From Blastomussa wellsi (Eukaryota; Cnidaria; Anthozoa; Scleractinia; Plerogyridae): a stretch of DNA of 64,000 nucleotides. Where the stretch lies: positions 33,741,043 to 33,805,042 of the forward strand of contig OX393562.1 in assembly GCA_947652115.1 (NCBI GenBank), written 5' to 3'. The notes below the pieces were generated by a model. The model worked only from the letters and a program-made list of their open reading frames with translations, had not been told where the DNA came from and ran no database searches. A program made the position numbers and the translations under genes. This document shows, piece after piece, positions 3,396 through 62,613 of the stretch (positions are counted from its first letter, which is position 1; the number at the start of each line of letters is the position of its first letter).

Positions 3396-7261
<3,866 letters not shown>

Positions 7262-8970: not shown

Positions 8971-9015
8971 GGCCCGGTTCAAACGTCGAACTTTACATGT
9001 GCCGAACCTAATTAT

Positions 9016-10622
9016 CGCTCGTGTGGTGCCTATTTTCAAAACTGGCGACAAAGCTATTTTTTTCTAATTATAGGCCTGTTTCCATCCTTCCTTGCTTTTC
9101 AAAATTCCTAGAGCGTATTGTTTATAATCGCATTTTAAGTTATCTAAATGATTTCCACATTCTTTGTGATAACCAATATGGGTTTAGAAAAAATCATTCT
9201 ACCACTCATGCACTTATCGACTTGTATGACAAAATTTCGTCTGCTCTGGATCGCAAAGAGCATGCTGTCGGAGTATTTCTAGATCTTTCTAAGGCCTTTG
9301 ACACTGTGAATCACGAAATTCTTTTTGACAAACTCTATCACTACGGTATTCGCGGACTGGCGTTAGAATGGGTGAAAAGTTACTTCAATGAAAGAACTCA
9401 ATTTGTTGAATACAATAGATTGAGATCAACCCCTCATAAGATCTGCTGTGGGGTTCCGCAAGGGTCAATTCTAGGCCCGCTGTTTTTTATCTTATACATA
9501 AATGATTTGAACAACGCTTCAAATCTTGAATCAATCATATTCGCAGACGACACAAATTTATTCATCTCACACAAAGACCCTGATTTGTTAATTAGTACCC
9601 TAAACTGCGAATTAATTAAACTGTCAAATTGGTTCAGAGCAAACAGACTCTCTTTGAACTTAACTAAAACAAATTTCATGGAATTCAAACCACGACAAAA
9701 AAAAAACTTCCTCAGACTTTAATGTTGTTATTAATGAGAGAACCATTGCACAGGTCAATGAAACAGTCTTTCTTGGGGTAGTTTTAGATGACAACTTAAC
9801 TTGGAAGTCTCATATATCTAGCCTAGCGGATAAAATATCTAAATCTATTGGTATAATTTTTAGATCTAGTTTTTATCTTTCAACTCCCTCTCTTCGCATG
9901 TTATACAACGCAATGATACTTCCATACCTTAATTACTGTAATCTAGTCTGGGGATCAACTTATAAAACTAACCTTCAAAGAATCGTAATTTTGCAAAAAC
10001 GTGTAATTAGGATAGTGAACAAGTCCTATTATAATGCTCATACAGAACCTATTTTTAAGAAGCTTAACTTGCTTAAATTTCAAGATATTCATTTAATGCA
10101 TCTAGGTCAGTTTATGTTCTCGTTTAAGAAGGCTATTCTCCCTCGAAAATTTGAGAACATATTCGCAATCAACAACCAAATCCATTGCTACAATACAAGG
10201 CATGCAAATTCCTTTCGTCTTCCGTTATGTAGAACAAATATCCGGCAATTCTCCGTATTCTTTCAAGGTCCCAAATTCTTCAATTCTCTTTCACCTGAAA
10301 TTTCGGGCACTTCATCACTGGCATCTTTCAAAAAAAAACTTAAAGCATATATTATTGATAACTATTAACTCTGTTTTCAAATAAGACTTGTCATAAATTA
10401 TCTAATATCAGTCATCTCGTGTTTATTGTGAGGGAACTTAAGCTTACAAGCCCCGTGGTTTTTTATTAGGTTCCCTCGCCATTTTGCTTTCCACCTTAAC
10501 ATATTATACTGTAGTTCTGTATTTTCATCGTTATCTGTATATTGAGCTGTTTTTATTTATTAATCATTGTATTATAATTCTATTTTTGGCAAATCAAAAT
10601 AAATAAATAAATAAATAAAAAT
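9016..10622 (+). mobile_element. 5'-truncated LINE (jockey/CR1/L2-like)
   Basis: Non-LTR retrotransposon copy holding only the reverse transcriptase and C-terminal part. The 3' end is a TAAA-type tail (AAATAAATAAATAAAT), typical of CR1/L2/jockey relatives. A probable 6-bp target duplication AATTAT is present at 9010-9015 and 10623-10628. It is inserted inside the inverted-repeat element 8971-11361, so it is the younger insertion. Confidence 0.8.
9021..10368 (+). pseudogene. LINE reverse transcriptase, frameshifted
   Basis: Reverse transcriptase fragment. Motifs seen in order: NYRPVSILP, LDLSKAFDTVNH (motif A), GVPQGSILGPLFF (motif B), FADDTNLF (motif C, the catalytic FADD). The frame breaks near 9705-9720 in an A-run and resumes with the thumb and C-terminal segment (FLGVVLDD, then NTRHAN and FKKKLKAYI). 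A second shift lies near the T-run at about 9056, where the preceding VPIFKTGDK block is in another frame. The endonuclease domain is missing because of 5' truncation. It cannot make a working enzyme as it stands. Confidence 0.88.
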
Positions 10623-15700: not shown

Positions 15701-18649
15701 AATGAATTTAGTCATCTGTAAGCTTCTAGTCAATCCCACAACCAGCCCCGACATTACTAATCGAAGCAAATTCGTTCGCTTGATCAAACTTAATTGAACC
15801 CAATCACGCGATTAGGTCGGATTGCGGTTTCGGTAATTGAACACAACGCTACTCTGTCCGATCTCGGACGACATCGACCTTTCGATTCCGTTTGATCGGG
15901 CTTCATTGAGTCTCATTAGTTCGATTAAGTTCAATTAGGGTAATTGGGATGAATTTTAGATTATTAGATTGTGTTCGATGGGGTGCAGTTAGTTCGGAAA
16001 TCGAACCCAATCGAACTCTCTCACAATTTTTTTGATTGGACTGAATGATTAAGTTCGATTAAGTTTGATTGCCGAACACGGTTCGATTAGTAATGTTGGA
16101 AATAATGCAGGCTGGTTTTTATCAAAAAGAAAAAAAACGTCTTTTTTGAAATGTACTAATTCATCGATTTTTATTGGTCTCTGCAGATTCTCGACTAATA
16201 GAACGCAATGTGTTCACCCCATGTCTAAACTGATCTTCGTATGTCCGAACACCGCTACCGCGGTGACGAGACTTGCCGCAAGTAGTGTCCTGGAGCCCCA
16301 ATACGAAAATCTCTGGCTAGTCAGCAGACACAGTTATGAGCGCTGCGAAGTGAATAAGTCCATTGACAGCGAACTTATATTGTGCGAAAAGCCTTTCAAC
16401 TTAAAATATCTTACGGTAATTTTTAAGAGGTACAGTGCAAGCGACGATCCCAAATTTGAACCGGGAAACGACTATTATTTTATAGGTAAGAACAATCTCC
16501 AATCATTTCTAAACGTGAACGCGTAAACAGTCACCCCAAAAATGAATGCAATCCTTTGACACTAACATGAAGCCTCGGGAAATGGTAGGATATTCTCGCC
16601 AGAAGGTGTTCAAGACTTAAATTCAGTACGTCATGCTTATGACGTCAATGCTTGGTTCAAATGTGGCCAAAATCTGTTACATAAAAAACCGGGGATACAC
16701 CTAAAATATATGACGATTATGTGTTATTTTGCTAGCGACTTCGGATGGCAAGCAATCATCCATTCACAGTACTTCTGGAGGACACTGTAAAACACACAAC
16801 ATGAAGCTAAAATTCCATATTTGTACGCGAACCGGAGGTGAGTTGCAGAAGAGACGGAAATGTTCTGTTACAGTCTTTCCCGTAAAACCGTGAACAGCAG
16901 AAAAATTTCTGGAATGTTTATTGTGTAGTGACAAATCGCAGCAAAGTTCAGGACACGCGAACAAACCTCAAAACCACAAACTAATGACCGTTGCTGTTTG
17001 CGGTTTAGTTTTCTCACACCTGATTCGCTTTTTCTTTAATTTGTAACACAATAACATTCCCTAAACATTTCTGGTGTTCACGGTTTTACGGGAAAGACTA
17101 TAAGGACTGCTAATTCATTGGAATGTTTCATTTGCGTTAAATGTGCATGTTCTCTTCCCAGACATGGGCCCTTAGAGAACGTCACTGACAGGCCCCTAGA
17201 GAACGTCACTGACAGGCCCCTAGAGAACGTCACTGACAGGCCGCTAGAGAACGTCACTGACAGGCCGCTAGAGAACGTCACTGACAGGCCCCTAGAGAAC
17301 GTCACTGACAGGCCCCTAGAGAACGTCACTGACAGGCCCCTAGAGAACATCACTGACAGGCCCTTAGAGAACGTCACTGACAGGCCCCTAGAGAACGTCA
17401 CTGACAGGCCCCTAGAGAACGTCACTGACAGGCCCCTACAGAACGTCACTGACAGGCTCCTAGAGAACATCACTGACAGGCCCCTAGAGAACATCTCTGA
17501 CAGGCCCCTAGAGAAGGTCAGTGACAGGCCCCTAGAGAACATCACTGACAGGCCCCTAGAGAACACAACATAGTGCTTAAAATTTGAAATCTATCTGACT
17601 GTAGGGTGAACTACATACAAAATACAGTGCCTTTGCTTGTTGCACAATTTAATTAGTGGTGATCATGAATTCAAAAAAAAAAACATGCTTCGTTTTCTCT
17701 TCGTAGATCCGCGTTGTCAAAATAATGATATGTGTAATGGCATAGCTCCTACGCATGCGCAAACAACTGCCATGGCAACCAACCCACCAATAACAAGAGC
17801 AGCTGTAACTACACAGAAGACAAAAAATGTGTCATGTACAAGCCATACTCTTCCAACCATAACCAACAATCCAGGTAACGTGAATCTCGGCTTAGAGTGT
17901 GCTGGACTCCGGATCGGGCAGCCCGGGTCTTATTAAATGCCGAGGAGAATGATCGAGCCCGTTTTTCAGGAGTTTGTCCGCAATACATTCTTGCAACTTT
18001 GCCTGGGCTGAGGAATATCTGAAAGTCCTTTATTTCAAGGTCCTCACTTCCTACTTCTCCTGAGTTGGTAGGAATGCAACCCCCAAAATATACCAGTATC
18101 TAAACCATCGGCCACGCTGCATATTTGCGTTAAAACATATTAATAACTTATGTGATGGTGGGGGGGGGGGGGGGGGGGCGGCTAATGCAATTTCCGTGGA
18201 CATTAGTAGCGCAATCCGCAGGCGCAAGCCATCCTGGGGGCTCTGGGGACAAAATGAATGCCCCCAGAATGGCTAAAACTGCATTCCAATATACAAGACG
18301 CAGTGAATTAATTTATTATTGCATGAGAGAAGTAAAACGGTTTTTTTAATGGGGTAAATGTATATTTTTCACAAATAATGCCTGTAAACACGATGTAACA
18401 ATTTGATAACCAAAGAGTTCTCTCCTTGCAGATGATCATGAAAATGAAAGCAATATGTCAGGGAGGGAGTCAACTTACCAGATAACCATCGGTTTGCTCG
18501 CGTTTATGTGCGTCATTCTAATCAGCGTCTCTGTTATTTGGATGTACCGACTTCACCGGAAGAGGAAGGCCACATCATTACCGTCACGTGACAGTGCTTC
18601 ATACGTGGTGAGAGTTGGCAGTGATTGCCCTGACGGAGACTGGGACTGA
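12754..18649 (+). CDS. Ephrin, transmembrane (B-like), gene 1
   Basis: Exons 12754-12863, 16187-16485, 16736-16837, 17707-17874 and 18432-18649 join in phase (897 nt, 298 residues). Exon 1 gives a signal peptide followed by LYPSIQWTPLNP, like the start of ephrin receptor-binding domains. Exons 2-3 give the ephrin fold with the expected cysteines (IFVCP, YERC, ILCEKPF, GGHC, FHIC), the YYFIG strand and an NRT glycosylation site. Exon 4 is a short Thr-rich stalk starting DPRC. Exon 5 carries a membrane segment (GLLAFMCVILISVSVIWMY) and a short basic tail ending GDWD, without a clear PDZ ligand. Known role: membrane ligand for Eph receptors in contact-dependent signalling. The second ephrin at 30824 has matching intron phases, so the two are tandem paralogues. 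Confidence 0.9.
14914..15170. mobile_element. Fold-back MITE, about 70-bp arms
   Basis: The left arm starts TAAAGTGTATATGAAAATAT and includes GGCCTTTCAAA and CAGAAGAATGG. The right arm carries the inverted copies CCATTCTTCTG, TTTGAAAGGCC and ATATACACTTTA. The arms differ at a few positions. No coding capacity is seen. Confidence 0.7.
15385..15625 (+). repeat. SINE-body repeat
   Basis: Contains CACAACACCGGGAACCTCG, GTGGGTTCTTTAACGTCCC, CCTACGGTTTTTCGTCC and CCATTTGCAGATGT. The same series occurs in reverse orientation at 41346-41560 next to a tRNA-like head, so this is the body of one SINE family. A short open frame across it is not a gene. Confidence 0.6.
15750..16098. mobile_element. MITE close to ephrin-1 exon 2
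   Basis: The ends ACATTACTAATCGAA and TTCGATTAGTAATGT are inverted repeats. Inside are many TTCGATTAAGTT-like motifs in both orientations. It ends about 88 bases before the exon 2 acceptor. Confidence 0.6.
17163..17573. repeat. 24-bp minisatellite, open on both strands
   Basis: About 17 tandem copies of a 24-bp unit (core CCCCTAGAGAACGTCACTGA) lie in the intron between ephrin-1 exons 3 and 4. Because 24 is a multiple of 3, the frame is kept. The plus strand reads PLENVTDR per unit, with an N-V-T or N-I-T glycosylation sequon in most copies; the minus strand reads GLSVTFSR. Later copies are more diverged (I for V, Q for E, K for N). An AG acceptor-like site precedes it at 17160-17161, but its phase does not fit exon 3, and no in-frame donor follows before TAG at 17571. 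I read it as an intronic minisatellite, possibly exonised, not as an established exon. Confidence 0.9.
17885..17935 (+). repeat. SINE head fragment
   Basis: Contains AGAGTGTGCTGGACTCCGGA followed by TCGGGCAGCCCGGGT. This matches the tRNA-like head of the SINE at 58180-58465. It lies 10 bases after the ephrin-1 exon 4 donor. Confidence 0.5.
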
Positions 18650-43688: not shown

Positions 43689-44186
43689 TTAGTTGAATGA
43701 AAAGCTTTCGTTGATACCGTGAGGATTAAGAGTGCCGATTTGAAAAATAAATTTTTGTTCTAGAGTTTTACGGCTTTCCGTGTTTCCTTGGTGAAGGGAA
43801 AGGCCGCAGACTGCCATATGTTGCTTAGAATGATTTGGGAGATTGAAGTGTCTCGCGACCGGTTTCGATGCATTTTTGTCGTCTTTCTCTACGTCACGAA
43901 GGTGTTCTCGGAATCGGTCGCCAAGTCGTCTCCCTGTTTCGCCGATGTATAACTTTTTGCAAAGAGTGCAAGTTATGCAGTAGATGGCATTGGCTGAGGT
44001 ACAGGTGAAATGATCAGTGATTTTGATAGATCGCTTGGGTCCCGATATTTTGTCAACGTTGTGAATAAAAGGGCATGTTTTGCATCGTGCGCGAGCGCAT
44101 TTAAAAGTTCCGGGTTGATCACTAGTTTGGAATGCACTTCTAACTAAAAAGTTACATATGTTTTTGTCGCGTTTGAATGAAATTAA
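43689..44186 (-). pseudogene. Penelope GIY-YIG endonuclease domain
   Basis: C-terminal part of the Penelope protein. A Cys-rich CARARCKTCPF segment comes first, then IYCITCTLCKKLYIGETGRR and FREHL, the GIY-YIG nuclease core with the Tyr, Gly and Arg positions in place. The frame is open to the stop at 43689. It is cut off from the reverse transcriptase by the transposon at 44187-45260. In Penelope-like elements this domain nicks the target DNA. Confidence 0.88.
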
Positions 44187-45260
44187 GGGACTGTGCAATA
44201 ATTACCTGGAGGGGGGGGCCGTAAAACGAGAGGGGGGGGCACAATGTAAACTAACAGCCTTAGGGAGGGGGGGTAACATGTAATTTTCTAAATAAGTGGG
44301 GGGGGGGGCAACTAAAAAACTGACTTTATGACTCAAAAACCAAAGATATTATTTTACTGAAAATTATACTCACTTTTTTCTGGACTGATTTATATAAATT
44401 TCATATGGCATGACCTAACATTTAAAGTAACACAGCCATGAGCAGTTCACCAATCTGGGACTGATTTTCAATGATACAAATAAAACATGAATAAAATAAA
44501 ATAGAACAGAACTAGTTATTACATGCAATAACAAAACCATCAGCAGTTCATGTAAATGTCTGGTGACTTGATGTTTTACCCTATTTATGAGTAACACAAC
44601 AGGGGTAAATCTAGAATTTATAGAAGTAGAGGATGTCCCCAACAGGAAACCAAGAACAAAATTAATTCTGATTGACAATAAATGTACGGAATTTTAGGCC
44701 CAAGGTAAGTATCACATCAACCTCATTACACCCCTCTAGATTTACCAATGGATATAATTAAAAAACTGGAAATGCAGGTAACAAGTGAAATTCACTTGAG
44801 AATATTATCAAAATGATACATGTTTTTGTTAGTGTTTAAGAGCTTGATGATAAAAAGTCTTCAACAAACTCTTCAGCTTCTCCCACAAAGCACTTAGAGT
44901 TTAACAGGTCTCCTAAACAAGCTTTATCAGTGCGAGACGTAAATAAAGCAATAATATCTGGATCGACATTATCAATCTGTGGCACTCCATATTTTTCTGG
45001 CTCATATTCTCCATCAACTGCTGTTCCTCCCAGTGAACGAAAAATAACAGAAGCTCTACCCTAGGTACGAGGGAATCAATGGGAGAAGTTGTTTTTCCAA
45101 GGGAGAGGGGGAGGGGGGGGGTCAAACTTAATGTTATTATTGTGTGAGGGGGGGTTGAAGTTAATTTTTGCTTAACGAGAGGGGGGTATGACTTAATTTT
45201 TGGCCATTTGGAACCCATTTTACGCCCCCCCCCCCCTCCAGGTAATTATTGCACAGTCCC
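44187..45260. mobile_element. Second poly-G DNA transposon, nested in Penelope
   Basis: The ends GGGACTGTGCAATAATTACC and its reverse complement, each followed inward by TGGAGGGGGGGG-type runs, are flanked by TAA on both sides (44184-44186 and 45261-45263). Like 24334-26592 it has GGGAC ends, an AT-rich block, CTGG and a long G run, so the two appear to belong to one family. It sits exactly in the Penelope reading frame. It carries one open coding-like segment on the minus strand. Confidence 0.85.
44836..45060 (-). CDS. Open segment inside the second poly-G transposon
   Basis: Seventy-four codons are open to TAA at 44836-44838, with CTAG|GGT at the upstream edge as a possible acceptor. The peptide is acidic (VDGEYEPEKYGVPQIDNVDP, later FVGEAEEFVEDFLSSSS). 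I do not recognise it, and it does not resemble the SAM protein of the first element. Codon-like order and a clean end make a last-exon remnant plausible. No upstream exon was found. Confidence 0.35.
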   Translation of the reverse strand, partial: GRASVIFRSLGGTAVDGEYEPEKYGVPQIDNVDPDIIALFTSRTDKACLGDLLNSKCFVGEAEEFVEDFLSSSS

Positions 45261-46231
45261 TAATGGCGGTTGCGAAAAGATTCTACCAGTGTCGGGATCA
45301 TTTTGAAGTAATTTAAAGTTTTTGAGGATGATGGATTTAACTGCGTGGTTGTGAGGGTGAAATGTGAGGGTGAATGGGATTCTATGGTTGTTTTCTCTCT
45401 GTAACGTTCGTAGTGCTAACTGTCGATCAATTTGTTGGGCGCGATGATGGCCCGCTTGAACAACAGAAGCAGGATAGCCGCGTTTGTCGAAGAAATTGCA
45501 CATTTCCTCTGATTTTTCCTCGTCACTACAAAGACGGCGAAGTCTAAGAAACTGAGAATAAGAAATGGAATTCTTGACATGTGATGGATGTGAAGATGAA
45601 TACAACAAATAACTTTGAGAATCTATGGGTTTGTAGTGCACACTGGTGCATAAACCGTTGCCTTCGATAAAAACTTTGATATCCAGGAATGCTAAGGAAG
45701 TATCGGAAATTTCCCAGGTATATTTAAGGGCAGAATGAAACGAATTAACAGCGGTTATAAATTGATCGAGATCCTCTCTGGTAGAAGAGGTAGCGCCGAT
45801 ACAGTCGTCAATGTAGCGACGATAGAGTTCAGGTTTTGGGCCGTTGTATTGATTGAAAAATTGGTGTTCAATGTAGCCTACGAAAAGATTGGCGTAGCTG
45901 GGTCCCATTTTGGTACCCATGGCCACGCCATTGATTTGTTTGTAATAATTGTTCGCGAATGAAAAACAGTTGAGTGTTAACACTAACTCAGCCAGGCGGA
46001 GTAGTGTTTCCAAGCTTGGTTCCTTAACAGTGCGTAAATAAAACAAATGTTTGAGGGCTAGAAGACCTTCGCCATTTGGGATGACGGTGTAAAGAGATTT
46101 AATATCCATAGTGAAAATAAGTTTGTCTTCGCCCAGGAAATTGAAATCGCGAAAAATTTGAAGTGCGTGTTGACTGTCTTTAACGTATGACGGTAAAGAT
46201 CTGACGATAGGTGCCATAATTTTGTCTAATC
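45261..46231 (-). pseudogene. Penelope reverse transcriptase core
   Basis: Open frame with the palm motifs in order: FTMDIKSLYTVIPNGEG (motif A), NGVAMGTKMGPSYANLF (motif B), YRRYIDDCIG (motif C, YIDD catalytic pair), then FLDIKVFIEG. The core is uninterrupted and the catalytic Asp residues are present. It is separated from its N-terminal part by a reversed Penelope tail and from its endonuclease by the poly-G transposon, so it cannot give a complete product. Confidence 0.9.
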
Positions 46232-46602
46232 GAAACCGGTTGCGAGACACTTCAATCTCCCAAATCATTCTAAGCAACATATGGCAGTCTGCGGCCTTTC
46301 CCTTCACCAAGGAAACACGGAAAGCCGTAAAACTCTAGAACAAAAATTTATTTTTCAAATCGGCACTCTTAATCCTCACGGTATCAACGAACGCTTTTCT
46401 TTCAACTAATTTATTCCGAAGTTTTCACGTTACCAGGCACCAGCCAATAGCGAAGCTCCATCTTTCTGTATATAAAAAGATACGACGCACAATTCCTTGA
46501 TTCGCTCCGACGAAGGGCTAACGCTCGAAACGTCAGCTATTGAATCTTTTTACGGTGGCCAATTGACATTATCAACCCAGTTGATAAAACCAAATTATAT
46601 AG
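46232..46602 (+). mobile_element. Reversed Penelope 3' tail inserted in the RT frame
   Basis: On the plus strand this repeats, almost letter for letter, the reverse complement of 43492-43870: the end of the GIY-YIG frame (QHMAVCGLSLHQGNTESRK), its stop and the 3' UTR. The host Penelope frame stops before it at ELISSY and resumes after it at LDKIMAPIV, so it is a 5'-truncated younger copy of the same family. Confidence 0.85.
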
Positions 46603-47584
46603 CTGGAAATGAGTTCGGTAGGGCAACTACAGGCAGAGACGATAGGTCGACCTGGGTTGTTAGCTTTGTGAATTTTAGGTAAAAAGTAAATACACGAGGT
46701 TCTGGGAGTGGTAATGGTGAGATTGGTAGTAGTAGCCGGCAATTCTTGTTTGACTATAAGGTCGTTAATAGTGCTCTTGACAATTTGTTGGTTTGTGGAG
46801 GTGAGATCTTTATCGACTTTAGCATAAAAAGAGGTGTCAGAAAGTTGCCGCAAAGCTTCTTTTTGGTAGAGGTCGGCCCGCCAAACAACTAAAGCGCCGC
46901 CTTTGTCGGCCGCTTTGATAATTATGTCTTTGCGCTTACTAAGGTTTTTTAGTGCCGTCCTCTCTTCCGAAGAAAGGATGGAAAATTTGGTGTTACGATT
47001 GAAATTAAGTTTATTGATGTCGTGACAGCATTTTTTAATGAAAAAATCTAAAGAGGAAAACTGGCCCTCTGGTGGAGTCCACTCAGATTTTCGAGTCTGA
47101 AGCGTCTCGAAAGTATCTTTGTCCGAGGTGTTAGAATCATCCTCTTTGTCATGGAAAAACGCCTTGAGTTGAACGCGGCGAAGGAATTTTTCAACATCTT
47201 GCTTAACTGAGAATTCGTCCGGTTTTTTGGATATAGGATTCAAGCCCTTACTGAGGACGGATTTCTCTGAGTCGGAGAGCGAAGATTTTCTGGAATAGTA
47301 ACCACGGTGTTAAGGTTTTCAAATGATGAGTCACAAGTAATTTGAGGACCTATTAATTGTTGAAGTTTTTGGGCCTTAATTTGGTGTAAATGGTTAAAAA
47401 GTTTAGAGTTTAACTCCTGAATTTTGGCGCGAATAGATTGTACTAAAATAGCTGGGCAGGTTTTGGACAGTTCAGAGCGATAATGTAGAATTTGTTTGTC
47501 GAGGTCATCACGTTTTTGCTGTTCCTCTGTTTCACGAAAACGAGACTTAATTTTTATAGCGTGCAATAAATTCTCCAATCGCAT
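46603..47584 (-). pseudogene. Penelope N-terminal region
   Basis: N-terminal part of the Penelope protein with a coiled-coil-like start (EEQQKRDDLDKQILHYRSEL) and the block IIKAADKGGALVVW that precedes the palm in this family, then FLPKIHKANNPGRPIVS. A one-base loss near 47275 splits it into two frames. It ends at ELISSY against the inserted reversed tail. Confidence 0.82.
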
Positions 47585-47934
47585 AATGTTTGTTCAGGAT
47601 TGGAATGATACATCAGGTTCATCAAAAAAACTCCCTTACCGAAAAATATCGAGGAATCAAAAATTATCTCAATGTCAAGTTATAGTGCATAACAAAAACT
47701 GTGCATCAAAACTAGTCAAATATCAAGATGCAGAAGTTTCCAACCAAACAACAACTGACAAATCAAAGGTGGCCCAAGCTCAATTTATGAGTATCTGTAC
47801 CATGTTGGCGTCATGCAACAGCAAAATGTAATGATTTGTATTGAGAAAACAGCAGTATTCAAAAATAATATTTAATAAAAATATTTAAAACAAAATAGCT
47901 TACCTAGCTTCTGTAGTGTCTTTCTTTGGGCCTG

Positions 47935-48675: not shown

Positions 48676-49185
48676 ATGTCGGGAACTGAGTTCTATCCAA
48701 TTTTATTGGATATTGTAAGAAGCTACACTCGTCATAAGATTCTACAGCGTCGTTTTTCCTCCATACTTCAGACAGATCGAGGAGAAGCCAGGGTCCCTTC
48801 GCAATTTGCAGTGTTGATTATCAAATTTCTTGGAGAGGAAACAGAAGCAGAAAATCAACAAATCAAAGAAGCTTTCAGTACGGCTGCAGCTGATCGCATC
48901 ATTGCAGAGCATGCTGAATTATTTTCCGACTCAATTTACGTGCAGAATTTCCATGTCTCGCCTCAAAGGTTGCCCTCAGTGGTGAACGAGATGGGAGATG
49001 TTATTTTCAAGGAGAAACAGCACATTGGCACCGTGGGCGCTTTCTTGGCGTTTGGGGCCACGTTTGCCGCGTACTGTGAGCAAAAGGACGGTCTGGGGGC
49101 GGTAGCAGTGGAGACAGTTGTGAAATCTGCCGCAAAATATTTAGATCATCATCTTCGATTCTGGCTGAGAAGTAACGGAGGATTG
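48676..49185 (+). CDS. Exon 1: Bcl-2-like domain
   Basis: 170 residues. The region around residues 109-128 ([20 protein letters not shown]) aligns by pattern with BH1; HIGT stands where NWGR is usual, so the Arg that holds the BH3 Asp is missing. FWLRSNGGL at 162-170 fits BH2, with L for the usual W. Between them is a helix of the expected length ([17 protein letters not shown]). No clear BH3 motif. The exon ends in phase 0 directly after the GGL. Confidence 0.85.
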
Positions 49186-52100
49186 GTAAGCTTAAAAGGA
49201 ATTAAACTTCAATTTCAAACTATGACTTTAAGTGAGGAGGAACCTTATGTTGACTTTAAGGCTAGAAAATGCAATAAAACGGTCAAAAGTCCCCACTATG
49301 GGGCGATAACTACTGTCAAATCCCCCACCTATGCCCGCACCCCCCCCACAGGATTTATATTGACAGGTGCATAACAAGAATGGCACCCGCTAGCTAATTG
49401 GTTGAGTCTGAACCTCCCGTTTCCCGTTTCACTGCCAGCTGAAGAAGAATGTTGGCATTAGTTTAATAGTGCATTAACGTTTGATGGTTACAATGTAATC
49501 TGATGCACAGTAACACTACAATGGGAAGAGGTCAAGCCCAATCTCGTACCTCGAGTCTTCGACGAGTGACTCCCAAAAGTTCTGTTACACAATCGATTTT
49601 GATTGGTTTTGAAGACAATAAAATGGTCAGAAGTAAAATACCATGTAGTTCGTTGGTTTGAGCTTTTGAGAGGTGGGCATGCGCAGTTCAGCTGGAAGTC
49701 CGATATTTTCACACTTCAAATCTGATCTATCCAGGGTCGCTTGTTTCCCGAGCAACCCTGGGTACGAGGGTGGGTGAAGCCCAGCAACACTGTGTTGTCA
49801 GTGAATCTCAAGCTTATCTTGACTTCATGCACATGTACCTCTAAAATACACAGTATAAAATTTACAGGTATCCGTTTGTATTATTTTCTTTGCAGGATAT
49901 GCTTCATTCTGCCAAAGTGGAATCCCTTGCTCATTTTGCTACATCTAAGAAAAGGAAGTTCCAGTTTTCAGATTCACTGAAACTTGTGGCTGAACATAGC
50001 TTGCAGACTGGAAATCCACAGTTTTACATCGAGATGTGTAAACTCATTTTAGAACTGCAGCATCTGCTTGGAATGGATGAAAAAGTAGCTGAAACTTGGT
50101 TTGATTATGGTATGTTTCTTTTTGGACAACAAGACTATTCTGGAGCCAAGAATGCCCTTGGAAATTCCATAACTGGATTTATCAGCCTGGGGCATGCTAC
50201 CAACACATTATTCCTTGGCCAGTGTCACTTTCAGATGGGTGTCATTGATAGTCACCTTGGAAACTTTCAAGAAGCTATCGTCTCATTTCAGCTATCGTCT
50301 CAATTTGGAACGGGACACATGTCAACTGCAATTTGCCAGCATTGGCTTGGATATCTGTACCGACAAAGGAAGTGTCTTGAGAAGTCCCTTCAAACTCAAA
50401 GCAGAGCTTTACAAGAGATGGAAAAAGATTCAACAGATGCTACTATGGGGAGCTTCATAAGTGATTCTTGCTTTGAATTAGGATGTGTTTACCATGAGAT
50501 AGGAGACTTCGAAAATGCTGTTAGTTTCCATCAGAAATCTTTGTGCACACGTGAGGAGCAAGTTTCTCATTTCAAACCAAAACTTCAGTCATACATTCAT
50601 CTGGCTGTGGTTCTGTATGATAGAGGTGTAAAGTTCAGCCTGTCTTATGTTGCTAATGAACTGATATTCCAAATTGTTCTTTTGCTTGAAAAGGCTGTGA
50701 CATTGTGTCAAGAACAGTCGCAGAGTGGAAACTTGCGTGAACGATTTCCTGTAATTATGCTGGCACACACAGACCGACTAGAAAGAATCAACGATATTCT
50801 TTCTTTAGCACTTGAACTTTGCAGAAATTTATGTTCAGTATTAGGTGAAAAAGACAAGAAAATGAAACAGAAATTGGAGAAAATAAAGGCTGATTTCAAG
50901 AACTTGCTGAACACAATTGTTGGTGAAAATGCATTGGAAAAATCTCCTGACTTGTTTGATGAAAAAGAGGACAGGTCAGAGTAGTGTTCTTGTTTAATGT
51001 AGTCTGCTTAGCTATGGGTTCAGTTTCATACAAATATGTCAACCAAAAGAAATATTATGTTTCCGTCATACAAGTACAGTAAGCTAGATAGATGTAATGT
51101 TCAACTTGTCATGATCAAGGGATAAAGAAAAAGATCTCAGTCCCCAACAGGGGTGGAAGCCGTTACCCCTCAAACAAGTGCACTCTATCCACTTTATCCA
51201 TTTCATGCTTGGTTCATAAAAAAAATACTATTAATGTTGCATTTTGTTCACCATAAGTCTCTATAGTTCAGTGGATAGACTAAGAGCGTCCATTCATTGT
51301 TTGGAAGGTCATTGCTAATGTACATAATACCTCAGTTACAACCTGTATGATGCTCTTGGAAGTGGTGGTAAATCGTATATGATTTATATATATGGCTTTC
51401 TTTTAATTTTTTTTCTTCACAATGCAGCTTGTTCAGATTGTTAACCACTGTATTCTCTTGCACAGAGATGAGGAGAGTGATGAGCAACAGCTGTCTAATG
51501 AGCAAGAAGAGATGGAGAAAGGTGAGGGGATTGCAGGTATCTAAATATGCATGCTGTGTGTATATGTTGCAGGTAATTTTTTGTTTCAGTTAATTTGATT
51601 TTTAACTACAGTAGGTTAATTTAGTAATTTACACGTACCTCTCATCTCTCTCCCCCTGCTCAACCTTCCTTCCCCCCCAACCTACATGATCTCTTTACCC
51701 TCTAGTATCAGTGCTCTCAGGGTTTGGGAGTATCTTCTCATCTCTCTCCCCCCACTCAGCCTTTCTTCTCCCTCTCCCGTAGTAGTACATGTACCTCTCC
51801 TCTGATCTCTCTCCCCCATACTCAGCCTTCCTTCTCCCCCCCCCAACCTACATGATCTCTCCCACCCCCAGTATCAGTACTCTCAGCGTTTGGGAGAATT
51901 CTTGGAATTCTTCCAAACCCTCTCATGTTTAGATGAGGCTATGTAAACACGGAAAAAGTCCTCTATAACTTAAATGCAGTTATAGATCACAAAGTAGGAA
52001 GATACATTCAACAGCCATACTCTTGTGGAGAATGTTCTTTAGTTTCAAATGCAGTATATTTACTTGTGTTGTTTTACTTGTACATTAGTTCCTCCAGAAA

Positions 52101-55100
52101 TTCTTGCAAGAGGAAAAGTGGCTTTGGAAGCATACAACAAGGCCCTTACTGAAGGGATGACTTGTGTTAGGAGGGTGCCAATAATGTTTATTGGACAAGA
52201 TCGTGCAGGGAAGACAAGCCTAAAGAGATCTTTGACAGGGAAACCTTTCAACAAAGAAGAAGACAGCACTGTAGGAATAGATGTTGATCCATCGCATTTC
52301 AAAGTGTCAACTGAGGTTTGGAAGACAGGGCAGAATATTCCGTCAACGGATTTTGATATTGCCATGTCTTATGAGCACCACGCAGCACGATTGGTCTTTG
52401 AAACTCTGACGGAAGAAGATGATGTCACAGAGGAACAAGTAGTGGAATCTTTTGGGTCAACACACATTCCCTTGGTTGACACAGCCTCGTCAACTGTAGA
52501 CAGTGATTTCCCTCTGGAGCCTTTAAATGTCCCTGGTGTAGAAGGCCATGATTCTGCCAAATTATCTAATAACTTGAACGTTTTAGAAACTATTGAAACG
52601 CAAGCAGATTCTGAGTCTATTCAAGCATCCAGTAATCGTGAACCTGGGCATGTTTCCAATGCATTAACTTATGACAAATATGATCTTACCAATGGCCAGA
52701 AAGACGACTCTCCCCTGGTCGTACCCAAAATGCCAGAAGAGATAGCGACATTGATTGAAAGATTGCTCAGAGAAGTTGATAATGTGGACGACAAAGACGA
52801 CATCTATTCGGTGTTGTGGGATTTTGGTGGTCAATCAGTTTACTATGCAACCCACCCACTTTTCTTGACTGCCAGAGCGATGTTCCTTTTGGTTTACGAC
52901 CTCAGCCGAGATCCACGTGAAAGAGCCGAACCCGTTGTAAAGCAAGGAATGTTCACGAAATTTGAAGACAGCTTTGGCCCGCAAACGAATATGGATTATC
53001 TGGACTTTTGGATGACTTCTGTTGCTTCCCTTTCCAGCCAAGATGGAAACCGTCACATAACTTGTGATGCTGAGGTGTTGCCAGAGAAATTTCCTCCTGT
53101 GTTCCTGGTTTGCACTCATGCTGATACACCTCATGGTGGTGGTGACCCCAGTGCATTAGCTAAGGAGCTATTTGGTTCTCTACAGACCAAACCATACAAA
53201 AGCCATTTGTATGGAGATGTCTTTGCCGTGAATAACACCAAGTCAGGCCTGGAATCTGAGTGTTTAGAAGTCATTCGCTTGAGGAGAGAAGTGCTTGCTG
53301 TTGCTAAGGAGCTACCACAGATGAAAGAAGCCATTCCAATCAAGTGGTTAAATTTCGAAAAGGCACTTCAAGTCATGAGGGAAGAGGGCCACAAATGGAT
53401 TACCCTCGACAACACCAAGCAAGTCGCATTTGAAGTATGCAGTATTGTCGAGGATAAAGAGTTCCAGACGTTGCTGGACTTTTTACATGACCAGAGAATT
53501 TTGATTCATTTTGACGACACGCCACAGTTGAGTAAAATGGTTGTGCTGGACCCTCAATGGCTGATTGACGTGTTCAAGAAGGTGATAACCGTAAAGCCCT
53601 ATTGCCATCAAGAGAAGGAATTTAAAGAACTATGGATCAAGCTTGAGATAACAGGAATCCTGGATGAAAAACTGTTAGAGCATGTTTGGGGCCCTTTGTT
53701 TGACCACAGAGAAACCTCAGAGAGCCTTATTGCAATCATGGAGAAATTCAGCCTACTTTGTCCCTGGCCTTCATCAGATGCTTCACAAAGAAAGCAGTAT
53801 TTGGTGCCATCCATGTTGATGTCTCATCCACCAGAAGCCATCATTAAGCTGGTTGCATCTGCACAAATTCCTTCTCTATTTGTTACATTTGAATCTGGTC
53901 AGGTTCCACCTGGATTGTTTCCCCGGCTGGTGCTGCAGTTTTTTCAGTGGGGTAAAGAAGAATTTTGGAGCCCAGTTAGTCCTCAGTTGTACCACAATTT
54001 TGTTAGATTCTTCATTATTGGAGAAGACGACTGTTCTGTAATCCTTCTGTGCCATTCCTCGTCCATCGAAATAGTTTTCCACAGAGGAAATGTGGGTCTT
54101 GTGTTAGCAGAAAATTTCAAGTCAAAGGTGAATTTGTTTGCGGATGTCAGTCATGACACATTTGATGTGACCTGTACCCGTGCTGTCTGCAGGCAGATGA
54201 GATTGATGCTTGAGTGTATGCGCAAGGAGTTCTGTTGGCTAACGAATATGAGGTATGACCTAAGTGTCATCTGCCCAGTCTGTTGCCAAGGATGTGCAGT
54301 TAGCTACTGTCGCACTCATCGCACTCAGGGTTGCAAGCAAGAGGAATGCTTGCACTTCTGGTCGGAGTCTATGTTACGTGGCAGCAAGGGTGTCATCATG
54401 TGCACCAGGTCTGCTGCCGCCCAGAATCACAAAGTTCCAGTGAAGAAGTTTGCACCATGGTTTGCATCCCTTGGTGAACAGGTACTGGTAGAACAAAAAA
54501 GTACAGTACTACGAAAACCGCGGAAATGGACCTGAATTTTCGTATTACTTCTTCGCCGACTTTTTTTTAAACAAATTCCAGACATTCCTAAGCCTGGCGT
54601 GGTCCGTTGTCTTGTCGCCACCGTTGCTAACAGTTGCCCGCCTGAACCGCGCTACTTGGGACAGAATTCTATTCCGCACTGCAAGAATCATCGCATCGCA
54701 TTACGATTGGGAAGAAAATTCGGCGTGCAACGCAGTCCAAGAGTGTCGCAGTGCAACACACATGGGTGGGTGGGTGTGTAAGGTTGTATTATACCAGCCA
54801 TTTAAATACCCTCAAGTAGAGAGAACACCCAGAACAGAATCCCACAATATTCCACAATCCTGGTTTCTTTACACTTGATATGTTCGTTTCGTCGTTGCAC
54901 TTAACAGTGCCAATTCATTCAATATTTGTGAGCTTATTTGCGATGACGATAAGTTATGCAGTGCGAATAGTAGAACAAAGTGGGTCGGAAAGCAAGACAA
55001 AAATTCAGGTTCGTTCCACGGAGCGTTGGTTTTCGTAGTAGTAAACCTTAAACTTGTAGCTGCTGAATATGTTCTGAGATATCCCAAAAAATCATTTTGA

Positions 55101-57373
55101 TCAAACTCGTCTTTTCTGATTGTATACCACAGCTTGCAGTTGATGAACGTGATGGAAGACTTTTGTCTTCTGAGCAAGGTAGGTTTGCTTGGTTGCTTTG
55201 TGGCAAGCTGTTCTTTTGTAAGACTTATGTGTTTGGGTGCATGAGGCTATGTAAACATCGCAAAAGTTCTCTTGCCAAAAACAACAAAAAGACTTGTGTG
55301 AAAGATTAACAACTAGTCCCATACTGGTGTCAACTGGTCATATCTTTTTTCATTTATTCCCCAAGCTGAAAATTTACCATCTGTTATATTTACCACATTC
55401 GAAATAAGTGTGATAACTTATACATGTAATGGATGGTAAATTTCGAAGCCTAATAGTGCAGTTTGTTCATAAGCTGGTTGTTTTTTCCTGTTTTTCTCTT
55501 CTCCCCGTAGTATAACGTACTGTAGCGTTTCGTAATCATTGCAATTATTAACTAGCGTGCTGTACGTTTTTTTTTGTGTGTGATGTAAAACATTCCTTAC
55601 TCAATAAAAATTAATTTTTAAAAACATGTTTACCACACACATGTTGTTTCGACATTGCTGATCCTAGCAGTGTACAGGGCGCATGTCATATATGAACCTT
55701 GTAAATTGCCTTAGCTTACAAAGAGTTCTCGTAGAACAGTTGGTTAGAGTGCCCGACTGGTATCTTGGACGGCTTCCGTTCGAATCCTATCGGGGAACTC
55801 TTATTTTTTCTTTGTCCCACGCTCGCCTCACAATAGGCCATTACCGAGTTCCCTTGAGCCTCTATTTCAAAGCGAGTCTAAGTGCGAAAGTTTTGTGATG
55901 GTAATAAGTTTTGCTTTCCATATGAATGAAAACTCATTTTCATTACAAAGACTTTGCACTTAGACTCGCCTTGAAATAGAGGCTAAAGGGAACTCGGACA
56001 TGGCCTATTGATCATTTCACCTTTATCAATGAATACTGTTTTTAACTAAATGAGGTAAAAAGCCTATTCTTTTATGTAGAAAGCGAAGAAAAACCGCTAG
56101 CTCTTCCCGGCAAGGTTCTGGAGTCACTTTTGTCACAGTCATGTGATCCCGGGGAGGTTGTTCATCAGCTTAAAGAAACTCTGCATCTGGACGAAGACTC
56201 TCTGAAGACTCCAGAGCCTGGAACCAAAAGATGGATCCGTTGCCTGGCAAGAAAAGCTAAATATTTAAACAGACATGATGTGGTAGAATTTTTGAGGGAA
56301 ATTACACCTGCTGGAAATACTGGTGAGTCTGGCAGTGTTGACTGACATGGCGCGCTGGACGCGTTAACATGGCGCGCTGGACTAGTTTTTACGGAACGCT
56401 TTGTTGCGGCAACACATTGTAGCAATTTGAAGGCAATTCAAAAACCTGCAGCATTTTTGCCCAATTTTGTTGGAGATGATTCGTGTAACACCCTTGTCGC
56501 TGAGCACACGCGTCCCGTTTAATGCATGTTGTTCCAACAATGTTGCATTAAAAGTTGTCTCATGTAACATGGATTAACAATCGGCGCCGAAAATTTACCA
56601 TCTATAATATTTAAAGTTTACTTTTGGAAAAAAGGTCGTTGTACAACGAAATTTAACTGTTTGAAGCTGTTTTTGACTTCTGGCATTTCTGCTTCTTCGT
56701 AATTATTACTAGGCTCAAATCTAGAATCATGAATCTCGAGTCATGTAATATCTACTACCGTAGGTGTACCAAGTGCGAAGTGCCCTCAGGCTGTAGGCTT
56801 TCTTGTATTTGTTCATTGTTAGCCTGTCTTTTTCCCATTATGCTGGATCACCCGTCAAACTTCTATTTTACCTGGCCGTTTGTTCCTACAGGTCCTCTAT
56901 TGCATGAACACCTTGATGTTCGAAATATGCCAGTGTCCCAGAGAAGGGAAGTTACAATTGACTTGAGTAGTAAGTGCTGATCATAATTTTGAATTTATCT
57001 TTATAACAAGTCTACATATTTATAATTATTATAGTCATTGTTTAAAAGTTCAAAAGATAAAAAATGTGTTTTGAATTTCGCGCACACGTTTTGGTTAGCT
57101 TCTCTTTCGGCAAGGAAGCTGCGCTTTCGTGATTTTTGTCACGGAGACACAATTACAAGATTTGTTGTTGTTCTTATAGGTGGGGATGAATGGAAGGTGG
57201 TTGCTGAGAGGCTGGGCTTGACTCCACGGGAGATTCGTTTCCTTGACAATAGAACTCTGAACCCATGTGATGCTGCGCTGGCTTTCATTGCAAATCAGAG
57301 GCCCACAAGTGTGGGTGGCCTGTACGATGTGTTAAACGACTGTGACTTGCCTATGATAGCTGATCTTCTGTGA
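48676..57373 (+). CDS. Bcl-2/TPR/Roc-COR/death-domain fusion protein
   Basis: Eight exons (48676-49185, 49896-50974, 51466-51521, 52089-54481, 55133-55178, 56080-56322, 56892-56969, 57180-57373) have matching phases and GT-AG borders: 4,599 nt, 1,532 residues. Approximate order: Bcl-2-like domain 1-185; TPR repeats 190-420; coiled coil 480-520; Roc GTPase P-loop GQDRAGKT at 584-591, acidic insert, DFGGQ near 793, CTHAD near 889; COR about 960-1250; Cys/His cluster about 1276-1305; helical segment 1362-1442; death domain about 1465-1532. Bcl-2 domains govern mitochondrial apoptosis, Roc-COR proteins are GTP switches, and death domains recruit adaptors or caspases. One chain holding all three suggests a signalling switch for cell death; the function is inferred. 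An in-frame ATG at 48616 is an alternative start. Confidence 0.85.
49896..50974 (+). CDS. Exon 2: end of BH2 and TPR repeats
   Basis: Starts [10 protein letters not shown], which continues BH2 as canonical family members do with DAF. Then come helical 34-residue-type repeats: [39 protein letters not shown] and [19 protein letters not shown] show the W/L-G-Y and A-F pattern of TPRs. A Lys-rich coiled coil ([20 protein letters not shown]) follows. TPRs bind peptide partners. No membrane anchor is present. Confidence 0.85.
51466..51521 (+). CDS. Exon 3: short acidic linker
   Basis: Nineteen residues rich in Glu ([18 protein letters not shown]). It enters in phase 2 and leaves in phase 1, joining exons 2 and 4 in frame. 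A second in-phase donor 15 bases later (51536) would add five residues. Confidence 0.65.
51634..51900. repeat. Pyrimidine-rich tandem duplication in intron 3
   Basis: Blocks of ACCTCTCATCTCTCTCCCCC, CAACCTACATGATCTCT and AGTATCAGTGCTCTCAG are repeated two to three times with small changes. The high C/T content lies upstream of the exon 4 acceptor. Confidence 0.75.
52089..54481 (+). CDS. Exon 4: Roc GTPase, COR domain, Cys/His cluster
   Basis: A single 2.4-kb exon. P-loop [14 protein letters not shown], then about 190 residues rich in Asp, Glu, Ser and Thr, then [17 protein letters not shown] (G3), VYDLSRDP and VCTHADTP (G4, the THxD of Roc domains). COR follows with [16 protein letters not shown] and KQYLVPSML. 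The end has [20 protein letters not shown] then [10 protein letters not shown], a possible metal site. It ends CAG|GTACTG in phase 0. Confidence 0.9.
55133..55178 (+). CDS. Exon 5: linker
   Basis: Fifteen residues ([15 protein letters not shown]). It enters in phase 0 and leaves in phase 1 at CAAG|GTAGGT. It links the Cys/His cluster to the helical segment. No domain. Confidence 0.7.
55722..55801 (+). repeat. tRNA-like SINE head
   Basis: AGAGTTC and GAACTCT form a perfect 7-bp end stem. An A-box-like AACAGTTGGTTAGAG and a B box GTTCGAATCC are present, but anticodon and T stems do not pair. I read it as a tRNA-derived repeat in intron 5 of the fusion gene. Confidence 0.5.
55831..56010. mobile_element. 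MITE in intron 5 of the fusion gene
   Basis: The left arm CAATAGGCCATTACCGAGTT and the inverted right arm AACTCGGACATGGCCTATTG continue inward through CCTCTATTTCAA and GACTAAG-type inverted copies, about 60 bp per arm. It ends 70 bases before exon 6. Confidence 0.75.
56080..56322 (+). CDS. Exon 6: helical, possibly death-fold segment
   Basis: Eighty-one residues in phase 1 at both ends. [24 protein letters not shown] and [20 protein letters not shown] followed by EFLREI look like successive amphipathic helices; the last resembles the final helices of death-fold domains. The sequence is not clear enough to choose between death, CARD or DED. Confidence 0.7.
56892..57373 (+). CDS. Exons 7-8: C-terminal death domain
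   Basis: Exon 7 (56892-56969) gives VTIDLSS at its end. Exon 8 (57180-57373) gives [20 protein letters not shown], then [10 protein letters not shown], then [17 protein letters not shown] and TGA. The W-x-x-V-A-x-x-L-G-L core, the mid helix and the closing D-L-P-x-x-A-D-L-L are the death-domain pattern. An AATAAA at 57800-57805 gives a 3' UTR of about 430 bases. Confidence 0.88.
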
Positions 57374-58179
57374 TAAAAACCATTAGAAGTGATACCGTTA
57401 TAAATTGAGAACGTTGTTTTATTTCCAAATGAGGGAAGAATTGTGTGTCTTTGTACGTGACTTGTTTTGGAACTTTTTTAAAAGCGTTGACTACGGAATA
57501 TTAGGACGACGACCGGAAGACAAATTGTCACATTTGCGTGCAATGCGCATGTCAATATTTGTCAATTAGTTTATGTTTCGTCGACGAAGCAATCAGCAAT
57601 ATATATGACTAAATTCCGACAATTGTTAATTAACTCCGACACGGCATTCATGTAAAACAGGCTTTAATGTAGTTGACTTTTCTTTAATGGTTAGCATATT
57701 TTAACTATAGAAGCTAAATCCGTGTACATAGTCTTTCACAATAAGTTGCAGCTTTTTTATATATTAAATTGTTAATGCCTGATGTATTTACCGTGTTTAA
57801 ATAAAGATGATGATGATAGATAAGGAATAAAATAATCGATTTTTTAGTTAATTCTTCTTGGAACAAACTTGCATACACGTTGATGCACGAAGTATAGACG
57901 GGCTTTTAAACCTTAGCATGACTGCCTCGCGCCCGAGTGCATTGTTGAGTGATTATAACCATGCGGTAATTTTTTAGAACATGAGAGAAGTGCAAAGAGA
58001 AGCACGAAGCCTTCTCTAGTATTCTTAAATATTCTCAAGTTCTTGGATAACTCAACAATGTACGAAGGCAAGTTCTTTTATAAAATGTTAAAAAAAATTG
58101 CGCGCTCACCGGGACAATTCTCTAATGCGGACACGTTTGCATTACGGGCAATTTCCTATGTGCCGACAAAATTCTTGTG
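57374..58179. other. 3' flank of the fusion gene
   Basis: It holds the presumed 3' UTR and the AATAAA signal at 57800-57805. A short GAT repeat follows at about 57806-57816. No coding exon is supported. Confidence 0.5.
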
Positions 58180-59383: not shown

Positions 59384-59920
59384 CACTACATATGGTTGCA
59401 CGAAAAACGTCCCCGGTTTGGTTGCAGTTAGTTCCACTTGGATTTGCTTGCGGTTATGTTTAATTTTTGGGGATAGTTCGCAGTTCTCTAGAACCTCTGG
59501 TTTTCACTGTCACGCTATCAAAAACTAACTTCGAAACAATTCAACTACAGAAGCTTAGAATTTCAGCGAGTGATGATAAATAAATAAAAAATTTCCCCAA
59601 GTCTCAGGCCTGTGCGGTGTCCCGTTCTCGAGTTATTTTCCGCCATATTTATGTCCTTCCGAGGGGTACAAATATGGCCGCCGTGATGCACGCGAAACCA
59701 TCTGGAATTCAATTGTGCTATATTAGCGACTACTTTTGGCTCATGAGCTATTATACTTACACATAAACACCACTTATTATATCTGAAATGTTAAAACATC
59801 TGAAAATCGAAAGGATAGGCTTTTTCTAAACAACACAGTTTTGTCACGGTTCTCAGCTTGATGGCCAAGAACTAAAATATTCAAGATGATCTGTTTTCAA
59901 AACGAAGGGTACTATCGAGC

Positions 59921-60088
59921 TGAAAATACTTTGCTGTTGTTGTGGAAGCAAGGACGTGGATCTCAGGCAACATATGCGGCTTTAGAAGCAGGATTATGCC
60001 ATAGTGTTGTTCTGCGGAGGGACTTGGCAGAAAAGTACTATTATGACCAAGCTATGCCTCAAGAAAACGATTTCATGGGATAAAAATA
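59921..60088 (+). pseudogene. Partial copy of the death-domain gene at 62.3 kb
   Basis: These 168 bases repeat 62448-62615 with a few changes (LLLLWKQGRGSQATYAALEA onward to the stop). The upstream part is unrelated, so only the second half of the death domain is here. An ATG at 59886 puts it in an open frame of 65 codons by chance or by a captured start. It is probably a broken duplicate. Confidence 0.75.
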
Positions 60089-62200: not shown

Positions 62201-62298
62201 ACGGTTTGGAACTGTGAAGCAAACCAAAGAAAGTATCTACTCATCGATTTGCATCAGTATTGTTTGATTTTGATCAGGGATTTGGAGGCCGCCAAATC

Positions 62299-62613
62299 AT
62301 GCGTAGAAAAACTGGAGTTCCTTCAGAAGCAGAGCTATTAAATCTGTCTTCAGAGCTCGGCGCAAAATGGAAGAATTTGGCTCGTGCTTTAGGAATACCA
62401 GAAGCAAACATTGAGGTGGTAGACGAGGAGAGTCGCAAAGTTGTAGAGAAGTGTTATACTTTGCTGTTGTTGTGGAAGCAAGGACGTGGATCTCAGGCAA
62501 CATATGCGGCTTTAGAGGCAGGATTATGCCATAGTGTTGTTCTGCGGAGGGACTTGGCAGAAAAGTACTGTTATGACCAAGCTATGCCTCAAGAAAACGA
62601 TTTCATGGGATAA
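62299..62613 (+). CDS. Small death-domain protein
   Basis: 104 residues from ATG 62299. SEAELLNLSSELGAKWKNLA is followed by RALGIPEANIEVVDEES, then LLLLWKQGRGSQATYAALEA and VVLRRDLAEKY. The W-K-x-L-A-R-x-L-G-I core, the L-L-x-x-W-x-x-x-x-G-x-x-A-T helix and the closing L-x-x-A-L are a clear death domain, which covers nearly the whole protein. It could be a stand-alone adaptor, or the last exon of a longer gene, since TCAG|GGA upstream (near 62278) is a possible acceptor. It lies about 5 kb after the fusion gene; a partial copy lies at 59921-60088. Confidence 0.75.
   Translation: MRRKTGVPSEAELLNLSSELGAKWKNLARALGIPEANIEVVDEESRKVVEKCYTLLLLWKQGRGSQATYAALEAGLCHSVVLRRDLAEKYCYDQAMPQENDFMG

Follow-up and report, generated by a model that had tools for sequence, protein, structure and literature searches.

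The 64,000-nucleotide window analysed here (Blastomussa wellsi, contig OX393562.1, positions 33,741,043 to 33,805,042; the contig is denoted C2 below) contains, on its forward strand between positions 48676 and 57373, a gene predicted to join a Bcl-2 domain, TPR repeats, a Roc-COR GTPase and a death domain. The predicted gene model comprises eight exons with GT/AG at all internal borders and incoming phases of 0, 0, 2, 1, 1, 1, 1 and 1 for exons 1 to 8. An earlier sequence-only reading of this DNA had proposed eight exons with fitting phases and one frame of 1,532 residues. The exons and phases hold as a model, and the rebuilt frame, of 1,527 amino acids and a stop codon, differs in length by five residues. 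Exon 1 (48676..49185) encodes a Bcl-2 core domain of 170 amino acids without a membrane tail, ending in NGGL directly before the donor gt at BH2. Exon 2 (49896..50974) encodes the TPR repeats and has an ATG at 49899. Exon 4 (52089..54473) encodes the Roc GTPase, into which about 150 residues are inserted, then COR-A and a further region. Exon 6 (56080..56322, domain at 56082-56321) encodes a domain of about 80 amino acids that is absent from Pfam, exon 7 (56892..56969) a linker ending in INLSS that leads into the death domain, and exon 8 (57180..57373) the death domain and the stop codon. The short acidic linker of exon 3 (51466..51521) and the 13-residue linker of exon 5 (55140..55178) were placed by splice sites and phase only. 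A pattern scan found hexamers resembling polyadenylation [poly(A)] signals past the stop codon, on the same strand within 57763..57831: ATTAAA at 57763 and AATAAA at 57800 and 57826. An exon 4 donor 8 bases further downstream was rejected because it breaks the frame; the upstream donor restores the frame, and the later exons are supported by paralogues. All eight exons are predicted to lie on one transcript.

Profile search of the translation found all five domains above the curated Pfam cut-offs (31.4 bits for Bcl-2, 27 for TPR_2, 27 for Roc, 35.3 for COR-A and 22.6 for Death), and the order Bcl-2, TPR, Roc-COR, death domain given by the sequence-only reading is retained in the model. Scored exon by exon, exon 1 matched Bcl-2 (PF00452) at 38.9 bits, and at 39.3 bits in the genome scan. 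Its sequence matches in the PDB belong to the Bcl-2 family, the best being Bcl-2-like 4 (6wgz, E = 2.2e-8). A single-sequence structure model of exon 1 was of low confidence (predicted local distance difference test, pLDDT, 53); all 50 of the Foldseek matches listed for it had the Bcl-2 fold, none of them at E<=0.001, and the predicted fold is only supportive of the Bcl-2 identity. The TPR repeats were recovered as well, exon 2 scoring 42.7 bits for TPR_2 and 36.2 bits for TPR_12. Roc (PF08477, 57.9 bits) and COR-A (PF16095, 69.8 bits) both fall within exon 4, and the Roc-COR part matches bacterial Roco and LRRK2 structures. The complete Roc motif set that had been described is present in the translation as GQDRAGKTS (52193..52219), DFGGQ (52820..52834) and THAD (53114..53125), which we take to be the P-loop, G3 and G4, respectively. 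Roc followed by COR, with these GTPase motifs, places the predicted protein in the Roco family; GTP binding and hydrolysis are predictions from sequence. The terminal death domain also stands, with 28.5 bits for exons 7-8 and a full-protein score of 22.9 bits, barely above the cut-off. When the full protein was scanned with Pfam, neither the protein kinase nor the ankyrin repeats that mark the DAPK family were found. The listed domains were thus right as far as they went; the extra domain of exon 6 had been overlooked. It has five predicted helices (model pLDDT 68), with no match in Pfam, no clear match by sequence in the PDB and none at E<=0.001 by fold. Our guess is that it may be a second death-fold domain.

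To place exon 1 among its relatives we used the one genome from which the window comes (368 Mb, 124 contigs), the scope of all genome-wide searches here. The Bcl-2 profile matched 13 places, 12 of them over the cut-off (11 besides exon 1), and none of the matches other than exon 1 among these 13 places lies at a Roco match. The 12 exons over the cut-off were aligned, the N-termini of several frames being trimmed by eye, mostly to a methionine; the thirteenth match (L015, 18.9 bits, below the cut-off) was left out, and the locus labels L002 and L005 are duplicates, as are L001 and L013. In this alignment the BH1 tryptophan is present in all 11 other Bcl-2 genes and the BH1 arginine in 10 of the 11; exon 1 has lost both, its BH1 equivalent (49021..49041) reading HIGTVGA where the others have [N]WGR[IV]VA. 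Likewise, GGW of BH2 is found in 11/11 other genes and is GGL in exon 1, which hence lacks the conserved residues of both BH1 (NWGR) and BH2 (GGW). The BH1/BH2-like motifs of the earlier reading are therefore recognisable as positions in the alignment, but BH1 is degenerate (HIGT) and BH2 ends in NGGL, not NGGW. What exon 1 does share with its family is its end: all 12 exons have a GT, the predicted donor, after the same BH2 position, as GGW|GT in 11 and as GGL|GT in exon 1. In a small one-species tree of the 12 exons, C2:26126118-26126417 groups with exon 1 as its nearest relative (support 0.924), the two being 31% identical across 133 columns of the alignment, and the exon 1 branch is very long (1.5). 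We therefore see in exon 1 the core exon of a Bcl-2 gene that evolves fast but stops where the introns of its family lie.

Past this intron two of the Bcl-2 relatives are predicted to continue into a membrane tail. In the nearest relative a phase-0 tail exon is predicted 1.88 kb further on; it starts with DGFIAFF and holds a transmembrane stretch. A Bcl-2 gene on contig C10 has a tail exon at +816, and no other clear case emerged when 1.5 kb was read behind the 11 genes. No Bcl-2-like tail exon in phase 0 was seen from exon 1 to about 52 kb, in a scan that is insensitive (1 of 11 genes positive at 1.5 kb). Three hydrophobic tail candidates follow an acceptor rich in pyrimidines; all three overlap exon 2, read in a different frame. 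In a looser list of eight candidates near the gene none begins like a Bcl-2 tail. Exon 2 itself has a good acceptor, the right phase and aspartate as its first residue. That exon 2 follows at the old Bcl-2 intron suggests, without proving it, that the tail exon was lost or replaced.

The back half of the gene has close relatives in the genome. A search with exon 4 gave 22 matches at E<=1e-10, including exon 4 itself and several that are pieces of one gene, and we followed the four closest paralogues (C20:7832336-7834573, C16:16719558-16721771, C2:28651339-28653474 and C20:7607962-7610175), whose main rows show 52-57% identity. The exon 6 domain recurs just downstream of three of the four, at 49-63% identity. 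Relatives of exon 7 lie at three paralogue loci (L042, 54%; L043, 48%; L040, 37%, a weak match with E 0.023), and relatives of the death exon lie behind two of the three paralogues that carry the exon 6 domain (L043, 63%; L040, 48%). Both of these end in ADLL-stop like exon 8; by itself, the L040 death exon scores 12.0 bits, under the Pfam Death cut-off. Behind the C16 paralogue no match to the death exon was found in the 4 kb read. The part that runs from Roc-COR through exons 6 and 7 to the death domain is a unit that recurs in this genome, and because paralogue loci carry relatives of exons 4, 6, 7 and 8, these exons are supported as belonging to one gene. The fourth paralogue (L039:3-2885 on the reverse strand, C20:7607300-7612299) instead carries a GT4-conflict glycosyltransferase domain (PF20706, 131 bits) directly after Roc-COR in a single open frame, which suggests that the family consists of conflict-type switches with exchanged end domains. 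A TRADD-N domain considered upstream of the C20 paralogue was rejected, as the two frames scanned gave no Pfam match. We also noted that the exon 6 domain is a candidate new domain family, and that the study gene shares contig C2 with its closest Bcl-2 relative (at 26.13 Mb) and with one of the Roc-COR paralogues (at 28.65 Mb).

Within the genome searched, the front half is peculiar to this gene. Among 52 candidates scored in a genome search with the TPR exon, the sole match at E<=0.001 was the exon itself, and no relative of it was found upstream of the four Roc-COR paralogues in the 2.1-5 kb read (5.0, 3.1, 4.0 and about 2.1 kb; remoter N-terminal exons could escape such stretches). Nor is any part of the gene duplicated in tandem within 100 kb on either side of the window (tblastn, E<=0.01, 20 stretches, L016-L035).

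We consider it moderately likely that the locus is a single fusion gene of Bcl-2, TPR, Roc-COR and death domain that works in the manner proposed below. This reading is favoured because the exon phases fit, the Bcl-2-type donor is kept and no other partner for it was seen, CpG is depleted, and of the poly(A)-like hexamers in the pattern scan three lie past exon 8 and none between exons 2 and 4. The CpG observed/expected ratio is 0.08-0.55 over about 49.8-52.6 kb (300-base steps) and at least 0.85 in 22 of the 32 two-kb bins of the window; no CpG-rich stretch lies directly before exon 2 or exon 4. The hexamers at 50882 in exon 2 and at 55603 and 56547 in introns 5 and 6 are of the kind that occurs by chance. 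Several observations weigh against a single gene. The exon 1-2 junction is a prediction, neither Bcl-2 nor the TPR exon was found at any Roco paralogue, and exons 1-3 are without comparative support. The CpG ratio of exon 1 and intron 1 (0.53-0.9) is unlike that of the gene body, so transcription may start within intron 1, and the ratio climbs to 0.81 within exon 4. Poly(A)-like hexamers in intron 1 (49201, 49273 and 49617) could terminate a short exon 1 transcript, exon 2 could be the first coding exon since its ATG lies one codon past the acceptor, and donor 2 (CAG|GTCAGA) is modest relative to the consensus, with a stop codon at 50982-50984 close behind it.

Part of this evidence would fit two adjacent genes, a short tail-less Bcl-2 gene made of exon 1, perhaps ending by read-through into the intron, and a TPR-Roc-COR-death gene that starts at Met172 behind an untranslated first exon. 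The position of the exon 2 ATG is what such a gene would need, the exon 1 frame stays open to a stop at 49374 with the AATAAA at 49617 behind it, CpG is intermediate (about 0.7) at 49.35-49.8 kb, and Roco paralogues with Bcl-2 were not found. We judge this arrangement less likely than the fusion: the Bcl-2-type donor of exon 1 is kept where the family has it, and up to 52 kb no exon other than exon 2 looked like a plausible partner for it; little CpG remains just ahead of exon 2, and the read-through tail of exon 1 is unlike a membrane anchor. A further split, in which the stop codon at 50984 closes the TPR frame and a separate Roc-COR-death gene follows, appears improbable. The stop codon 8-10 bases past donor 2, an in-frame methionine in exon 4 ahead of the P-loop and the lack of relatives of the TPR exon, both in the genome and in the stretches read upstream of the paralogues, speak for it; yet no poly(A)-like hexamer occurs from 50984 to exon 4, CpG is low throughout the gap, exon 3 fits the phases on both sides, and the exon 4 acceptor lies directly before VPPEILARG, which is also present in paralogue L039. 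That exon 1 is a dead, unused Bcl-2 duplicate we regard as very improbable. Its branch length of 1.5 and the loss of the BH1 tryptophan and arginine and of the BH2 tryptophan are what decay might leave, but exon 1 is unlike a dead copy because it retains 170 open codons, together with its start and its donor, at 31% identity to its nearest relative.

Roc-COR proteins switch their assembly state with the bound nucleotide, TPRs are partner-binding repeats, and death domains form assemblies; in Bcl-2 proteins, the BH1 arginine contributes to holding BH3 ligands. On this background, the fusion gene would encode a cytosolic Roco-type scaffold. The Bcl-2 exon may have come to be spliced in phase 0 to the TPR exon of a TPR-Roco-death gene, either through intron-mediated shuffling or because its tail exon was lost. 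The TPRs would bind a ligand or partner, Roc cycling between GTP and GDP would alter COR-mediated assembly, and assembly would cluster the death domain and so recruit death-domain partners. The tail-less Bcl-2 domain with its altered BH1 may bind or sequester proteins and in this way direct the scaffold to other members of the Bcl-2 family; adaptor or decoy seems the more likely role, as compared with pore former. The loss of the BH1 tryptophan and arginine and the lack of a membrane tail also make it less likely that GTP state is linked to a Bcl-2-type interaction, as had been suggested for this protein. A more specific proposal, which we put forward tentatively and with some doubt, is that the Bcl-2 domain was added as a terminal module to Roco switches of the conflict type, a family with exchanged ends (a death domain here, GT4-conflict in the paralogue), which would bring Bcl-2 interactions and death-domain assembly under one GTPase.

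The modules joined here had been described as normally residing on different proteins. This applies to the Bcl-2 domain, which is unusual in such company, and not to the remainder, as Roc-COR with a death domain is known from DAPK1, TPR and death domains occur on Trichoplax Roco proteins, and the back half recurs in this genome. According to the parts of the papers available, DAPK1 has Roc-COR followed by a C-terminal death domain, as the study gene does, and differs in carrying a kinase and ankyrin repeats in front, where the study gene has Bcl-2 and TPR, and in lacking the exon 6 domain (PMC6337361, PMC6320773). TPR, CARD and death domains are reported for Trichoplax Roco proteins, which therefore resemble the study gene in having TPR and death domains around Roc-COR; Bcl-2 goes unmentioned for Trichoplax in the available part of that source (PMC11378527). 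Among molluscs, certain immune proteins are described that have Roc-COR together with TIR or death-like domains (PMC9334734). Kaur et al. 2021 describe prokaryotic AP-GTPase (Roc) and COR proteins in which GT4 occupies the effector position, and count more than 500 paralogues of GT4 in Acropora digitifera (PMC8195603). These conflict systems share with the family described here a Roc-COR switch and exchangeable end domains, GT4-conflict being found on a paralogue in this genome; as described there, they differ in being prokaryotic and in carrying GT4, not Bcl-2 (PMC8195603). Acropora millepora has a similar Bcl-2 repertoire, 11 proteins as compared with 11 others over the cut-off here; Table 1 of that paper gives 8/11 with a predicted tail and 3/11 without, and names no further domain on them (PMC4715348).

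The Roc-COR/death part is thus a known arrangement and the Bcl-2 domain is the unusual element. To our knowledge Bcl-2 domains almost always stand alone, and we know of no earlier Bcl-2 protein of such a Roco-switch kind; no description of a Bcl-2/Roc-COR protein was recognised in searches of the open-licence PMC literature. If the single gene is real, it would clearly exemplify exon shuffling, a Roco/death-domain gene having caught a Bcl-2 core exon at its old intron, the mitochondrial and death-domain arms of cell death would be joined in one gene, and a Roco family with swappable end domains would be indicated in this animal.

Elsewhere in the window, a separate death-domain exon lies about 5 kb downstream of the gene (62218-62610, forward strand, Death 51.3 bits), and 59862-60080 on the same strand is a shorter near-copy of its end, without a Pfam match. 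Upstream, reverse transcriptase and GIY-YIG pieces at 43692-47593 on the reverse strand end about 1 kb before exon 1 and form an element that we take to resemble the Penelope type. Positions 9012-10365 on the forward strand are probably a retroelement: a frame for reverse transcriptase (RVT_1, 120.8 bits) is followed there by a second, overlapping frame that matches nothing in Pfam. The remaining features are an exon of a Ras-family GTPase at 4732-5016 on the reverse strand and an ephrin-domain exon at 16053-16523 on the forward strand.

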